A DNA stretch of 13,585 nt, from the NCBI GenBank assembly GCA_025965815.1, contig JAOPWF010000712.1, positions 1 to 13,585 on the forward strand, given 5' to 3'. The notes under the pieces are model-generated. The model did not search any database and was not told the origin of the DNA. It saw nothing but the letters and a program-made list of their open reading frames with translations. The translations under genes were made by a program, and so were the position numbers. Below are positions 1,621 through 8,508 of this stretch, in pieces (the stretch's first letter is position 1; each line of letters begins with the position of its first letter). Source of the stretch: Mycobacterium sp. (GTDB lineage Bacteria > Actinomycetota > Actinomycetes > Mycobacteriales > Mycobacteriaceae).

Positions 1621-2517
1621 TCAGTCGGGGGTCTCACCACACTTCGGGCGCTTGTCCGATTTTCCGGAACCGAAGAACCCGTCGCGGCGCAACGCGCTGA
1701 TGGCGACAGCGTGCCGCACGACCGTCGAACCGAAACCTGCCAGAAGGCGCAGTGACCTGCGGGCCACGCTTCGGCCGGGACCTGCAACTCGGAGCACCGG
1801 CCATCCACGCTCAGCAGCCGTCGCGGCGAGCCCGGCGCGCGGGTTCACCGGCCGGGGATGGCCGACCAGAGACATCAACGCCACATCCTCGTCACCGTCG
1901 GCGTAGAAATAGCTACCTTGCAGCGCAATGCCACGGTCTGCGCAGAACCGCTGCACCGCGGCGGCCTTCTGCGGTCCCCACACGACTGGCTTTGTAATCC
2001 CGCCGGTCAGTACGCCGCGATCGTCAAGCTCGAAGTGATTGCACACCACATGGGTGATCCCCAGAAACCTGGCGACCGGCTCGGCGTGGATGGTGAGCGC
2101 AGACGAACTGAGTACCACGGTGTGCCCGCGGCTCTGATGAGCTTGGACGATTTCAGACATCTGCAGATAGACGCGCGACGCGATGTGGTCCGCGAACAGC
2201 CGCTCGCCGAGTTCGTCGAGGTCGGCGATCGACTCCCCCCGAAGGTAGCCCGCGGCTCTCACGATGAGCCGCTCAAACTGCATTCGGCCCACGCGGTACC
2301 TCATCGTGGCCTCGACGACGCCCAGGACCTCGCCAATCCGGGCCTGTCGGCGCCGGATCCGGTCGCCGGCGTGGGCAGTCGCGGTGAACCCGGCGACCAG
2401 GGTGCCGTCGAGGTCGAAGAACGCGCCGATTCGCGGTCCCTGGGGGCTTGCGGCGATCTCCGCGATCGGATCGGCCGGCGGCAACGATCTACTGCTCGAA
2501 TGTGAAATTGCGCTCAT
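1621..2517 (-). CDS. HAD-superfamily subfamily IB hydrolase (phosphatase), 298 aa
   Basis: Motif I is FFDLDGTLV with nucleophile D35 and acid/base D37. Motif II is the Ser of VVLSSSA, motif III probably the Lys of WGPQKAAAV, and motif IV the acidic cluster YADGDEDVALM. This fold hydrolyses phosphomonoesters, with phosphoserine phosphatase-like annotation common, but the substrate is unknown. IAEIAASP and GPRIGAFFDLDGTLVAGFTA closely match what I recall of the N-terminal domain of mycobacterial PlsC-like Rv2483c, a roughly 580-aa protein whose C-terminal half is an acylglycerolphosphate acyltransferase. Here the protein stops shortly after the linker (SVARRSLRLLAGFG) with a basic tail, so no acyltransferase is present: it is a stand-alone paralogue or a truncation. 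The ATG at 2517 has only a weak GGGA upstream and overlaps the stop of a tiny upstream frame (ATGA). Cytosolic; no signal peptide. Confidence 0.9.
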   Translation of the reverse strand: MSAISHSSSRSLPPADPIAEIAASPQGPRIGAFFDLDGTLVAGFTATAHAGDRIRRRQARIGEVLGVVEATMRYRVGRMQFERLIVRAAGYLRGESIADLDELGERLFADHIASRVYLQMSEIVQAHQSRGHTVVLSSSALTIHAEPVARFLGITHVVCNHFELDDRGVLTGGITKPVVWGPQKAAAVQRFCADRGIALQGSYFYADGDEDVALMSLVGHPRPVNPRAGLAATAAERGWPVLRVAGPGRSVARRSLRLLAGFGSTVVRHAVAISALRRDGFFGSGKSDKRPKCGETPD

Positions 2518-2890: not shown

Positions 2891-5632
2891 TTGCGGATCT
2901 CCTTGGCATTGTTGATATTGGTGTGCGCTGCAGACTTCCCGCCGTTCGCCGCCCATGAGCCCCCACCGGATAAGATCCAGCTGGCCGAGGGTTGGAAACT
3001 CATGTCTGCGGCGGGTTTGCCGGCCGACGGATCGATGCTTTCTCTTCCCACCTACAAGGATTCGGAATGGCACGCGATCCCACGAATGCCGGCCAGCGTA
3101 CTGGACATCCTCCAGCAGGATGGCGTCTATCCAAATCTGTACGTAGGCAAAAATATGCAGGATGGCGTACCGCAGGATCTTTATAAGCAGGATTGGTGGT
3201 ACCGCACGACGTTTCAGGCGCCGGCGGGTCACACGACGTACCAACTGGAATTCCCGGGAATCAATTATCGTGCCGAGATCTGGCTGAACGGCCACATGGT
3301 TGCCGGCAACAAGCAGGTTGTGGGCATGTACAGCGCGCACGAGATCAATGTGACGCCGTGGATCAAGCGGGGGGAAGCGAACACCCTGGCGGTCAAGGTA
3401 ACGCCGGAGCAAGCACTGCAGGACGTCGACGGTGTGGAGCTGGCGGATAGTTGGTTCGACTGGATCAACTGGAACTACCTGGGCTACCAGGGACCCGGGA
3501 AGAATCCGGCGAATGGAAACTCATTTCTTCCCGATCGCAATGCCGGCATCTTGAAACCGGTTTCCCTGCGCGTTTCGGGCACCGTAGCCATTGACGGGCC
3601 CCTGGTGAATTCCGAACTTCCGCTGCCGAAAACCGATACAGCGCGCCTGACCATGTACGCGAATCTTCACAATGTGTCCGCGCAACAGGTCCGTGGCGTT
3701 CTTCGGGCCACGGTCACGCGCGCCGGCAAGCCCAGCATCAACGTCGAAGAACCGATCACCCTGTCGCCGGGTGAGGATCGTCAGGTCAGCTTCGCTCCGG
3801 AGAAGTATCCACAATTGACGGTCGCGAATCCAGACCTCTGGTGGCCGTATACGCTTGGTGCGCCGAACCTTTACGATCTTCATCTGGAATTCCGAGCGTA
3901 TAACCAAGTGACCGACACCGCCGACTCCCGTTTCGGCATCCGTACGGTATCTCAATATCGCGATCAGGACGAACAGTTCCCAGGTCTGGGTAAGGGCGGA
4001 AACTTCTATATAAAGGTCAACGGCAAAGACTTCTTGGTCCGCGGAGCCGCGTATGCGCCGGATCTGCTCTACAAATCCGACCCAGAGCGTGAAACCGCGA
4101 TCCTTCGCTACGTGAAGGATCTCGGCCTCAACATGCTGCGCTTGGAGGGGAAATTCCCCGACGAACATTTCGTAGGGATGGCAGACGAGCTCGGTATTCC
4201 ATTGATGTACGGCTGGATGTGCTGTAACCAGTGGGAGAAGTGGCCACAATGGGACGCAGAAGATAACCGTGTCGCACAGGATAGTCTGCGGTCTCAGGTG
4301 CTGATGCTTCGTGACCACGCTTCGGCATTCATATGGTCGAACGGCAGCGATGGAACTCCGCCACCTTCGGTGCTCGCGAAGTATCACGCAACTCTGACGG
4401 ATCTGCATTGGCAGAACGCCATCGTCGACACAGTCTCCTCATACGCCAGGGACGAAAACGGTGAGCCCGAATGGGACGGTATTCAGATGGCCGGCCCGTA
4501 CAGTTGGCGCCCGCCCACCTACTGGTTCAGCGGCCGCTACGGCGCTGCGCGTGGCTCTTCTGCTGAACAGGGCGACAACGAACACATCCCGCCCTTCGCC
4601 AGCCTGAAGATGTTCATTCCACCGGACAAGCTCTGGCCCATCAACGACGCCTGGACGTTCCATGCCGGTTCGAACCCACAGAACGCGGGGCTGACCAGCA
4701 TCAAGCGCGCCGTGGATCGTCGCTACGGAGTATCAAGCAGCGCAGAAGAATTCGCCCGTAAGGCCCAACTCGCACATTATGAAGCAACACGGGCGCAGTT
4801 CGAGGCGTTCGCCGCTAACGGGTGGGACAACCATAAGATGACCATCTATTGGATGCTGAACAGCCACTGGCCATCCTTCTTCGGAAACATTTTCGATTAC
4901 TATCTGCGCCCTGGCGGGGCCTATTACGGCGCCAAGAAAGGTTTGCGGCCGTTGTCGGTGGTTTTCGATTCCTACGCGACTGGCGACCATAGCCAAGCCA
5001 AAGTCACTGTCGTCAACCAGGCGCCGAACAGCCAGGAAAATCTACAAGTCCGTGTCCGGATCTATGACCTGCAAGGCAAGGTGCGCGGAGACAACACAGT
5101 CGACAACCTCAGTGTGGCTTCAGGTGGAGCCGTTCCAGCCATGACGTTGCCACGGATTCCCACCGCATCAAGAGTTTTTTTCGTGCGTTGTCAATTGTCG
5201 GACAGCACCGGCCACATCGTTGCCGACAACGTCTACTGGCAGTCGCAACAGGCGGATGACGTCGGAGATCCGAGGAACGACTCTGCCTTCAGCCTGAAAC
5301 AAGCGAGTTGGGCCGATATGACCGCGCTCAACTCGATGACGCCTGTTCCGCTGGAGGTAACCGCCCTACAAAGTTCTCCTGCGGACAAGAACCATGCTGT
5401 TATCCGCCTACAGAACCCCACCAATCAGGTTGGGTTTTTCGAGCGCGCTGAGATCATGTCCACGCCGGACGGCGATGAGATACTCCCGATCGAGTACGAC
5501 GACAACTACGTCACGGTATTTCCGGGAGAAACCGTCGAGCTGCGCGGTGTCGTCCCCACTGCCGGAGTGACCGCCAATTGGGTGAGAGTGACCGGATACA
5601 ACACGCCACCAGTGGTGGTCCCGATCAGATAG
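2891..5632 (+). CDS. Secreted GH2 glycoside hydrolase, exo-beta-D-glucosaminidase (CsxA-type) subfamily, 913 aa
   Basis: Predicted to remove terminal beta-linked glucosamine from chitosan-like oligomers or another aminosugar glycan outside the membrane. Order: signal peptide (RISLALLILVCAADFPPFAA, likely cleavage before HEP); GH2 sugar-binding beta-sandwich (about 95-230, YRAEIWLNGH); immunoglobulin-like domain (about 245-350); TIM barrel (about 365-670); C-terminal beta domains (about 685-913). Catalytic residues are acid/base D487 in SNGSD and nucleophile E559 in SSAEQG. Their 72-residue spacing equals the D469/E541 pair I know from Amycolatopsis CsxA, and GPYSWRPPTYW and IYWMLNS also fit. 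The start is TTG at 2891 with no good ribosome binding site. The same frame is open back to 2849, where an ATT (2867) behind GAGGAG would give a more basic signal peptide (KSSRNAILR). GC is visibly lower than in neighbouring genes, and the sequence recalls Acidobacteria proteins, suggesting transfer. The stop overlaps the GT87 gene by 8 bp. Substrate could differ, for example beta-mannosidase-like. Confidence 0.93.
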   Translation: MRISLALLILVCAADFPPFAAHEPPPDKIQLAEGWKLMSAAGLPADGSMLSLPTYKDSEWHAIPRMPASVLDILQQDGVYPNLYVGKNMQDGVPQDLYKQDWWYRTTFQAPAGHTTYQLEFPGINYRAEIWLNGHMVAGNKQVVGMYSAHEINVTPWIKRGEANTLAVKVTPEQALQDVDGVELADSWFDWINWNYLGYQGPGKNPANGNSFLPDRNAGILKPVSLRVSGTVAIDGPLVNSELPLPKTDTARLTMYANLHNVSAQQVRGVLRATVTRAGKPSINVEEPITLSPGEDRQVSFAPEKYPQLTVANPDLWWPYTLGAPNLYDLHLEFRAYNQVTDTADSRFGIRTVSQYRDQDEQFPGLGKGGNFYIKVNGKDFLVRGAAYAPDLLYKSDPERETAILRYVKDLGLNMLRLEGKFPDEHFVGMADELGIPLMYGWMCCNQWEKWPQWDAEDNRVAQDSLRSQVLMLRDHASAFIWSNGSDGTPPPSVLAKYHATLTDLHWQNAIVDTVSSYARDENGEPEWDGIQMAGPYSWRPPTYWFSGRYGAARGSSAEQGDNEHIPPFASLKMFIPPDKLWPINDAWTFHAGSNPQNAGLTSIKRAVDRRYGVSSSAEEFARKAQLAHYEATRAQFEAFAANGWDNHKMTIYWMLNSHWPSFFGNIFDYYLRPGGAYYGAKKGLRPLSVVFDSYATGDHSQAKVTVVNQAPNSQENLQVRVRIYDLQGKVRGDNTVDNLSVASGGAVPAMTLPRIPTASRVFFVRCQLSDSTGHIVADNVYWQSQQADDVGDPRNDSAFSLKQASWADMTALNSMTPVPLEVTALQSSPADKNHAVIRLQNPTNQVGFFERAEIMSTPDGDEILPIEYDDNYVTVFPGETVELRGVVPTAGVTANWVRVTGYNTPPVVVPIR

Positions 5633-6902
5633 CGAATTCCTCCGTGGGCACCCGCTTCTCGGGCTGGAGTGGTTCGGCGACATCGGCGGAACGCCATAAC
5701 CAGACCGCGGTGCAGACCAGCACCACCAGGTAAGCGAGAAGATAACTCGTGGGGATGATGTCGTCCCAGGCGCCGCCGTGGCGCAGCGAAAGCAATCCCG
5801 TCTCCGGGTTTGGGCCAAATGAGACGAACCAGCCGGCGAACAACGCCCAGAAGAGCCACATGGCCCACGCGGAGACCCGGCTCCGAAGCACGTACCCGCG
5901 GTAGGCCAAGTGCACTAGCAGGGGTGCGAACCACACCCAGTGATGGCTCCAGCTGAACGGCGACGCGGCGGCGGAGGCCATTCCCACGATGGCGACGCCG
6001 AGCACAGCGTGGCCCCGTCGCCATGCAATGGCAGCAACCACCAAACCCGCGACGGCGAGCCCGATCGCCGCGACGGTGCCGAGCGCAGCGGGGTAATGCA
6101 TGCGCACGAACAGGCCATGCAGGCTGGTATTAGCGAGCGGATCGCTGGAAATACGCTTGACGTCGTCGAACCCCCTGTCAAGCCAGAAGAACCTCGAGGC
6201 AGACGGCAGCAGTGCGAAGCCGAGCAGCACCGTGCCGGCCAGCGTTGCGGTCGCGACCAAAGCGGCCCGCAAACGCCCGGTCAGCACCAGATAAACGATG
6301 AAGATCGCCGGCGTGAGCTTGATCCCGGCGGCCAGACCGATTCCCACCCCGCTCCACTTGCGTTCCTTCACCACCAAGAGGTCGGCGACTACGACCGCGA
6401 AGAGGAACAGGTTGATCTGGCCCAACTGGACTGTCAGACGGATCGGCTCCAGCCACACAAGGAGGCCGAGCAACAGCGCCGTCATGCTCCACAGTCCGGT
6501 CGCAGTGGTCAATCCGAACCGCTTCACCATGCGACAAACCGCGAACGTCAGCAGAACACCAGCGCTCACCAAGGTCAGGATCTGAACCGAGAACTCGTTG
6601 AGGAGGGCCAACGGAATGAAAAACAGCGCCGCGAACGGCGTGTAATCGAATAACAGCGTGCGGGGATTACCCGTGTAACCGACCGAATACAGGTCGAGCC
6701 CGTCCAGAATTCGCGTCGCCCCGAAGCGATACACGAGTGCGTCGATCTGGACGCCCAAGTTGGGCCAGTGCAGATAGACCACCAGGTACAAGATCGCTGC
6801 CGCCGTCAGAACCGCTGGGCCGGCCCGTCTGGCCCAGGGCGAGAGGGACCGAGTCTGTTGGGTCGGCTGAAGCGCGGCCGTTTCCTCCGTAAGTTGGCGC
6901 AT
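5625..6902 (-). CDS. GT87 family polyprenol-phosphate-sugar-dependent glycosyltransferase (PimE/Rv2181-like), 425 aa
   Basis: A polytopic GT-C protein with about ten hydrophobic segments, starting with one at about residues 28-46. The first external loop carries the family's VQIDALVYRFG...ILDGLDLY...FDYTPFAALFFIPLALL block. D54 is the likely catalytic Asp, equivalent to the DLxVY Asp of GT87. Other GT87-like blocks are QLGQINLFLF, GIGLAAGIKLTPAIFIVYL and SPFSWSHHWVW. Relatives transfer mannose from polyprenyl-phosphate-mannose to phosphatidylinositol mannosides, lipomannan or lipoarabinomannan on the outer face of the plasma membrane. The precise acceptor here is unknown, so no symbol is given. 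ATG at 6902 has a strong GGAGGAA nine bases upstream. The C-terminus (PTEEFAI) overlaps the GH2 stop by 8 bp in a tail-to-tail arrangement. Confidence 0.93.
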   Translation of the reverse strand: MRQLTEETAALQPTQQTRSLSPWARRAGPAVLTAAAILYLVVYLHWPNLGVQIDALVYRFGATRILDGLDLYSVGYTGNPRTLLFDYTPFAALFFIPLALLNEFSVQILTLVSAGVLLTFAVCRMVKRFGLTTATGLWSMTALLLGLLVWLEPIRLTVQLGQINLFLFAVVVADLLVVKERKWSGVGIGLAAGIKLTPAIFIVYLVLTGRLRAALVATATLAGTVLLGFALLPSASRFFWLDRGFDDVKRISSDPLANTSLHGLFVRMHYPAALGTVAAIGLAVAGLVVAAIAWRRGHAVLGVAIVGMASAAASPFSWSHHWVWFAPLLVHLAYRGYVLRSRVSAWAMWLFWALFAGWFVSFGPNPETGLLSLRHGGAWDDIIPTSYLLAYLVVLVCTAVWLWRSADVAEPLQPEKRVPTEEFAI

Positions 6903-7218
6903 AGTTGTATTCCTCCGCGTATGGCTCCCGGTTTTTCAAGACGAACAGTTGGGTGCACTGCAGCCCGCACGAGTCGTCCATGACCATCGCGCCGCCTGGC
7001 ACGGCAAGCCAGGATACAAGCGCGGTCTGGGCGGTCGCTGGACCGGCCGCTGTCGGTTGAGGCGGTATCCACCAAAGTGCTCACCCGGCCGGCTTCGCTC
7101 CCCATGCTGAGCGAGTGCTCAACACAACTCCCTACCACACCACCGTTGACCCTTCCCCGCGGCGTCGTCGCGAGCGGTGCCGCCGCGCGGTGACGGAAGG
7201 CGCGAGCCGCCGTGCGTA
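6903..7218. promoter_or_regulatory. Divergent promoter region between the GT87 gene and cinA
   Basis: Some 316 bases that must carry both divergent promoters. I see no convincing gene. Symmetric sites are CCTGGC/GCCAGG (6995-7000, 7008-7013) and TGAGC-GAGT-GCTCA (7108-7121), the latter shaped like a TetR-type operator. The GT87 Shine-Dalgarno (GGAGGAA on the minus strand) lies at the left end. No confident -10/-35 pair could be assigned by eye. Confidence 0.45.
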
Positions 7219-8508
7219 GTGTCGTACCCGGTGAGTACACGCGCGGGCATCGTGGTCACGGGGACCGAGGTCCTGACCGGACGGGTCCAGGACCGTAACG
7301 GCCCCTACATTTCCGACCGGCTCCTCGAGCTTGGCGTCGAGTTGGCGCACATCACGATCTGCGGTGATCGCCCTGCCGATATCGAGGCGCAGTTGCGCTT
7401 TATGGCAGACCAGGGTGTTGACCTGATCATCACCAGCGGCGGTCTGGGGCCGACCGCCGATGACATGACCGTCGAGGTCGTGGCCCGCTTCTGCGGGCGC
7501 GAACTGGTCCTGGACACCGAACTCGAGGCCAGGATCGCCGCAATCCTGAAGACGCTGATGGCGGCCCGTTCCGGCGGCGGGGATTTCGAGTCAGTGCGCG
7601 CCGCAAACCGCAAACAGGCGATGGTTCCGGCCGGATCGCACGTGATTGACCCGGTGGGCACCGCGCCGGGCGTCGTTGTCCCCGGAAAGCCGACGGTTGT
7701 AGTTCTGCCGGGACCGCCTCGTGAACTCCAGCCGATGTGGCTGACTGCGGTGCAGACGGACGCCGTGCAAGAGGCCATCGCCGGCCGCAGTACGTACCGG
7801 CAGGAGACCGTGCGGATGTTCGGGCTGCCCGAGTCCGGCCTGGCCGACACCCTACGGGACGCGCAGTTGCGAATCGCCGACTTCGATCTGCTCGAGATCA
7901 CCACCTGCCTGCGGCGCGGGGAGATCGAAATGGTCACCCGCTACGAGCCTGACGACGCGGGCGTCTACGCGACGCTGATGGACCTGCTGCGGGAGCGCCA
8001 CGGACAGGAGATCTTCTCGGAGGACGGCGCACGCGTCGACGATCAGGTCGCTCGGCTGCTGGCCGGCCGCCGGATAGCGACAGCGGAGTCCTGCACCGCA
8101 GGACTCCTCGCTGCGCGGCTGACCGACGGCCCAGGTTCGTCAGCCTACGTCGCCGGTGGGGTGGTTGCCTACGCCAACGAGGCGAAGGTCGAGTTGCTCG
8201 ACGTGAATCCGGCGCTGATCGAGGCGCACGGTGCGGTGTCCGAGCCGGTGGCGGAGGCAATGGCAGACGGGGCGCTACGCCGCTTCGGGGCCGACACTGC
8301 GATCGCGGTCACCGGCATCGCCGGTCCTGGTGGGGGAACGGACGAGAAGCCGGTGGGGACGGTCTGCTTCAGCGTCATGGGGGATGGCGCCCGGACGCTC
8401 AGTCGCACCCTGAGGCTGCCCGGCGACCGAGCTGACATCCGGGAGCGCTCGACGACCGTGGCGATGCACCTGTTGCGACGTGCGCTGAGCGGCGCTGCTG
8501 ATGACTAA
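7219..8508 (+). CDS. cinA: CinA-like protein (MoCF-domain plus PncC-type NMN amidase domain)
   Basis: The N-terminal COG1058/MoCF domain opens [20 protein letters not shown], with [11 protein letters not shown] and [12 protein letters not shown] following. The C-terminal PncC-like domain has the [15 protein letters not shown] motif, whose Ser is the presumed amidase nucleophile, plus [19 protein letters not shown]. In other bacteria this domain deamidates nicotinamide mononucleotide in pyridine nucleotide salvage; whether the actinobacterial protein does so is unproven. The length from GTG at 7219 is 429 aa, close to the roughly 430 aa I recall for M. tuberculosis Rv1901. GTG 7231 (VSTRAGIV) and GTG 7177 are alternatives. 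No start has a good Shine-Dalgarno at normal spacing; a GGAAGG at 7195-7200 is rather far. It ends in tandem stops TAA TAG. Cytosolic. Confidence 0.96.

Follow-up and report, generated by a model that had tools for sequence, protein, structure and literature searches.

The stretch analysed here, referred to as the window, is a 13,585-nucleotide contig of Mycobacterium sp. (GenBank assembly GCA_025965815.1, JAOPWF010000712.1). It carries an intact, uninterrupted open reading frame (ORF) for a glycoside hydrolase of family 2 (GH2) related to CsxA, the exo-beta-D-glucosaminidase of Amycolatopsis orientalis, set between genes for a HAD-IB family hydrolase and for a GT87 glycosyltransferase followed by cinA (Table 1). 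An original prediction, made from the letters of the DNA, had described it as a laterally acquired gene for a secreted exo-beta-D-glucosaminidase. We put at roughly 0.7 the probability that the gene is of acidobacterial descent, was transferred and has since been inherited in mycobacteria, and that its product is a secreted exo-beta-glycosidase of the CsxA kind.

Table 1. Features of the window. Related loci are the best 80 of 156, include four acidobacterial loci and several short contigs, and their counts therefore lean to close relatives; a neighbour outside the available flank was scored as absent.
Feature	Position	Strand	Basis or remark
GH2 CsxA-like exo-beta-D-hexosaminidase gene (predicted)	2891..5632	+	913 residues, TTG start; alternative start 2903 (TTG)
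Probable signal peptide, residues ~1-21	2891..2953	+	hydrophobic N-terminus, judged by eye
W188-G219: Asp190-Trp191 of subsite -1, then clade-specific insertion	3452..3547	+	32 residues here, 14 in CsxA
E419, equivalent of CsxA E394	4145..4147	+	alignment to CsxA
S486-D487, SD motif; D487 likely acid/base	4346..4351	+	alignment; GH2_16 SD motif according to the available text of PMC12243196
A558-E564 (AEQGDNE): E559 likely nucleophile, and clade-specific loop	4562..4582	+	alignment
HAD-IB family hydrolase, upstream neighbour at conserved site	1621..2517	-	TIGR01490 over cut-off; in 58/80 related loci
GT87 glycosyltransferase, downstream neighbour	5625..6902	-	PF09594; in 9/80 related loci
cinA, downstream neighbour at conserved site	7177..8508	+	NF001813 over cut-off; in 64/80 related loci
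Integrase piece (phage-type), incomplete, runs off contig edge	2..901	-	judged unrelated to GH2

The GH2 product is probably secreted: its N-terminus is hydrophobic, and residues 2-14 form a hydrophobic helix in the predicted structure. The clade of closest relatives conserves a Cys near position 12, but a lipoprotein reading of it was dropped, as the lipobox motif was not seen on inspection by eye. A database entry for the same protein has 909 residues, compared with 913 in the window ORF. The structure model, built from 73 sequences, displays a CsxA-type fold along the full chain; it replaced a first, poor model based on 29 close sequences (predicted local distance difference test score, pLDDT, 63.9).

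The predicted active site follows CsxA closely. As originally proposed, D487 and E559 align with D469 and E541 of CsxA, with a spacing of 72 residues in both pairs. According to the available text of PMC12243196, subfamily GH2_16 has SD in place of the usual NE motif and Glu in place of a conserved His near C2; both are tied to the amine at C2 (available portions of PMC12243196 and PMC6566704), and the Glu of CsxA, E394, binds this amine (PMC6566704, likewise in part). The SD motif and the amine-site Glu were each present in all 222 aligned clade rows, a set that includes some near-identical or identical pairs drawn from two sources. In total, 142 CsxA residues recur in 98% or more of the clade, with gaps counted against conservation. 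Since SD and Glu occur in the query and in every clade row, the best reading is a retaining beta-glycosidase that acts in exo mode on unacetylated hexosaminides. The enzyme very likely removes unacetylated amino sugars from glycan ends. E559 would attack C1, D487 would serve as acid/base, and E419 would pair with the free C2 amine, so that unacetylated beta-D-hexosaminides would be released from chain ends.

Two marks set the clade apart. The stretch corresponding to W188-G219 has the length found in the window in 205 of the 222 rows (range 24-33 over all rows), as against 14 residues in each of 40 mid-distance paralogues. In 188/222 rows, which make up the six commonest forms, the loop at the nucleophile is AEQGDNE, where CsxA has SETSAGV. 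An acidobacterial protein of 50% identity (L131) carries both insertion and loop. As far as found, the clade is thus not plain CsxA but an uncharacterised CsxA-type variant with structural marks of its own.

Distribution, phylogeny and genomic site

The claim that such an enzyme is not a usual mycobacterial gene proved wrong. It was found in 151 of 396 genomes of the genus (132/361 among those of good quality), so that the idea of a stray gene gives way to that of a likely amino-sugar glycosidase, seemingly from another phylum, carried by this share of the sampled species genomes. In the set of relatives 20/61 genomes matched, one with a 32% match in another family; among actinomycetotal genomes 8/346 matched, and the three above 60% identity all belong to the genus. 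Within the acidobacterial phylum 46 of 297 genomes matched. The closest protein found shares only 78% identity, and therefore no recent donor was seen. Spread by plasmids was rejected (of 72,556 plasmid records, 114 gave a match, in each case below 60% identity). A GH2 copy with one in-frame TAG, split into two ORFs, was recorded at L112 (G169:C60:1550-4279) and L029 and reflects either decay of the gene or an error in sequencing.

Trees were built of 152, 226, 53 and 37 proteins, and in them all rows from Mycobacterium records or from genomes of the genus fell into one clade, which also includes some rows from metagenomes and a few records whose title says no more than actinobacterium. Two fragments below 700 residues, 26 duplicate ORFs and the broken L029/L112 copy, whose pieces are under the 500-residue ORF limit, were left out. 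Acidobacterial rows (G473, Acidobacterium, Acidobacteriaceae with Granulicella, and Candidatus Acidiferrum) diverge before the mycobacterial clade, and further acidobacterial paralogues lie outside. The mycobacterial sequences are therefore nested inside acidobacterial ones, as expected from the acidobacterial affinity originally proposed, which is further upheld by five acidobacterial copies that match their flanks in base composition.

Most mycobacterial loci read have GH2 near the HAD gene and cinA, with GH2 inverted in some, and the order HAD-GH2-GT87-cinA of the window is repeated in other loci, e.g. L043 and L056. In 10 of 16 GH2-negative genomes read, the HAD gene lies within 7 kb upstream of cinA without GH2 (in two at about 1 kb). 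GH2 distances are correlated with those of RpoB (r 0.63, n 16), and GH2 presence is clustered on the RpoB tree (7 changes versus about 13 in shuffles; 39 rows, without G003 and G008, which gave no RpoB match, and with a 187-residue RpoB piece for G000). The conserved HAD/cinA site and the correlated distances point to an old acquisition. The gene thus appears to be an ancient arrival from Acidobacteria, now common and mostly inherited in environmental mycobacteria, rather than a recent import; one old gain with many losses fits the data, and the transfer was probably single. We envisage that a mycobacterial ancestor would have received GH2 from an acidobacterium, probably once, between HAD and cinA, and that environmental mycobacteria would then have inherited it, often lost it and, in a few lineages, moved it.

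Amino-sugar genes and the substrate

Of the original assignment as an exo-glucosaminidase of the CsxA kind, the CsxA-like catalytic residues and predicted fold stand, while chitosan as substrate finds no support here. Glucosamine appears somewhat likelier than galactosamine as the sugar released, and is slightly favoured overall; a smaller share of the probability falls to neither. A tentative alternative is that the clade has a specificity novel to GH2, that of an exo-beta-D-galactosaminidase for unacetylated galactosamine, which evolved in acidobacterial galactosamine-use loci and was passed once to soil mycobacteria. Here the two marks of the clade, located at the active site (the insertion that follows D190-W191, and the AEQGDNE loop), would adapt subsite -1 to the C4 epimer, and the galactosamine set free would enter an Aga-type pathway (AgaS, PfkB kinase, GatYZ/KbaYZ).

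The acidobacterial neighbourhoods provide part of the evidence. Clade loci in this phylum contain TonB-type outer-membrane proteins, melibiase-like and GH31 glycosidases, and amino-sugar catabolic genes. L145 (G473), L253-L254 (G420) and L255-L256 (G422) are glycan-use loci in which TonB-type receptors and melibiase-PKD genes adjoin GH2, with GH31 in G420 and G422. The best AgaS match lies 306 bp from the clade GH2 in G473, 722 bp in G420 and 5.5 kb in G422 (1, 2 and 3 AgaS-family matches per genome, respectively), and E. coli AgaS is proposed, in the available text of PMC3668189, as a galactosamine-6-phosphate deaminase/isomerase. AgaR scores over its cut-off in G422; G420 has an AgaR homologue, a GatZ-like gene and PfkB, and G473 has PfkB. 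Against this, the estimate of how often AgaS would lie so close by chance was made post hoc, the acidobacterial AgaS and GatZ score below curated cut-offs, and both G421 and the L131 locus carry NagB-like and PfkB genes instead of the AgaS set; the short G423 contig holds none of these amino-sugar genes. Clade regions thus have AgaS in 3/6 and NagB-like genes in 2/6, but control regions around insertion-free paralogues were also positive in 3/6, two of the six control contigs being only 5-6 kb long: AgaR with AgaS on G422 C263, a protein nearest GlmD on G420 C107, and a NagB-like gene on G422 C320. Because clade and control neighbourhoods are both mixed, amino sugars in general are supported more firmly than one epimer.

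Co-occurrence within Mycobacterium, counted throughout with phylogeny uncontrolled, is similarly two-sided. GH2 was present in 53/63 GatZ-positive genomes versus 98/333 others, and, at least as strongly, in 117/155 NagB-positive genomes versus 34/241 others (NagB-positive being a best E below 1e-35; the curated cut-off gives 144 genomes). The GatZ association persists inside NagB-positive genomes (53/59 versus 64/96, p 0.001), but is absent in NagB-negative ones (0/4 versus 34/237). With a NagB link at least as strong and phylogeny uncontrolled, co-occurrence was not accepted as demonstrating that galactosamine is used; a comparison of independent pairs yielded only four, too few to discriminate. 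The 81% complete genome of the window showed no GatZ and no true NagB, which also goes against galactosamine; the same is true of 34/151 GH2-positive genomes. GatZ itself occurs in 63/396 genomes of the genus, and all seven mycobacterial GatZ loci read (L271-L277; six from GH2-positive genomes) contain AgaR and AgaS homologues. One of them, L272 3990-12689 (G004), combines AgaR-GatZ-AgaS with a NagK-like kinase, a GatY-like aldolase, an alpha-galactosidase and ABC sugar-transport genes, and is likely a locus for amino-sugar or galacto-sugar use. Through the marks of the clade, the existence of a free-amine galactosaminidase within GH2 can be tested directly.

Base composition and the course of the probable transfer

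The lower GC content originally noted was confirmed: the window GH2 has a GC of 0.578 and a GC at third codon positions (GC3) of 0.694, versus 0.635-0.708 and 0.773-0.832 for six named neighbour genes. The same protein recoded in the codon usage of the neighbours gave GC 0.615 +/- 0.005 and GC3 0.801 +/- 0.013; about half of the GC deficit is therefore due to amino-acid make-up and half to codon choice. GH2 is lower in GC than its flanks in 72 of 76 non-acidobacterial loci, by a median of 1.6 points, and the window copy shows the largest deficit (7.5 points). Among these 76 loci, the three lowest GC differences from the flanks belong to the window copy, L022 and L081. The five acidobacterial copies mentioned above are within one point of their flanks. 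Of inherited placement and neighbour-like codon use, which the original prediction had named together as what would refute it, only the first applies: the gene sits among mycobacterial genes that look mostly inherited, yet its codon use is unlike that of its neighbours. This unadapted look may stem from slow adaptation, from recombination with a relative that was not seen, or from a second transfer. The window copy is an example for studying codon adaptation after transfer.

Several observations weigh against an old acidobacterial gene of CsxA type. The composition of the window copy is near-acidobacterial, close to that of the Candidatus Acidiferrum copy (GC 0.561, GC3 0.685), which is odd for an old resident. 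Presence in the genus is patchy, with at least 7 changes on the RpoB tree. Forcing seven acidobacterial-side rows (including P0113) together lowered the log-likelihood by 51 (approximately unbiased, AU, test, p 0.000345), but this p-value flatters, because the group was picked after earlier trees and the outgroup branches are long. The metagenome rows P0002, P0007, P0017, P0027 and P0029, in or beside the mycobacterial clade, could be from another phylum. Neither cinA nor HAD lies in the available flanks of L022 or of the gordonae/asiaticum group, for which relocation or re-transfer is needed. As to the enzyme, the insertion and loop could alter the substrate, and we know of no member of the clade that has been assayed. 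The group just named, with intermedium, comprises L084, L088, L091, L093, L094, L095 and L098, some with short flanks; nitronate monooxygenase-like and multicopper oxidase-like genes are near L084.

It is rather improbable that mycobacterial lineages, including that of the window, took the gene at different times from acidobacterial or unseen donors. The low GC retained by the window copy and L022, when most of the other copies in mycobacteria differ little from their flanks, and the different site in L022 and the gordonae/asiaticum group would suit such separate transfers, but all mycobacterial rows form one clade against named Acidobacteria and the gene order of the window recurs as in L043 and L056. 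A recent import on a mobile element, for which the integrase piece 2 kb upstream and the deviating codon use would speak, is very unlikely and was rejected on synteny and distribution: no integrase match was present in any of the 80 related loci, the HAD gene lies between integrase and GH2 in the window, the gene is common in the genus, and no plasmid match reaches 60% identity. The boundaries of an integrative element at the integrase are cut off by the contig end, and such an element, if any, extends beyond the window. The integrase noted originally is therefore real, although incomplete, but its link to GH2 did not hold; for lateral acquisition, the direction looks right, and the recent age and the vehicle do not. 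Apart from the rarity claim, we consider the original observation sound. Transfer from mycobacteria to a few Acidobacteria, suggested by identities above 60% in only 2/297 genomes of the acidobacterial phylum (one being the centre of the draw) against 151/396 in Mycobacterium, is likewise very unlikely, given that acidobacterial rows form a grade outside the mycobacterial clade, that most nearer paralogues found are acidobacterial, and that the acidobacterial copies agree in GC with their flanks and are surrounded by TonB receptors, glycosidases and amino-sugar genes.

Relation to known systems

Among the papers listed in a literature search, titles and the beginnings of abstracts showed neither a mycobacterial GH2 exo-glucosaminidase nor a free-amine GH2 beta-galactosaminidase. 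The available text of a Mycolicibacterium survey (PMC6930893) lists GH2 under pectin-directed beta-glucuronidase and beta-galactosidase; its strains P1-18 and P9-64 share names with our loci L062 and L038, respectively, and for the present gene this label looks wrong. The E. coli aga/gam galactosamine regulon (PMC3668189, available text) resembles some acidobacterial relatives, which have AgaS-, AgaR-, GatZ- and PfkB-like genes nearby, but none of these four is among the window genes with family matches, and GatZ was missing from the incomplete genome as described above. GH2 beta-mannosidases (GH2_13, GH2_17) differ in that the available text of PMC12243196 describes an NE plus Trp signature for GH2 and its mannosidase subfamilies, where the window GH2 has SD plus Glu. 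Acidobacterial CsxA-type paralogues (e.g. L146, L135 and L150) share SD in 34/40 and the amine-site Glu in 35/40 mid-distance cases, but lack the insertion in all 40 and have T-E-T-x-x-G-type nucleophile loops in the forms shown. The closest known system is CsxA itself (GH2_16; PDB 2VZS, 2X09), to which the window GH2 is 34% identical over 809 aligned columns. It differs from CsxA by about 18 extra residues after Asp-Trp, by having AEQGDNE where CsxA has SETSAGV after position 540, and by the lack of seven residues that CsxA has after CC-x-x-W-E.
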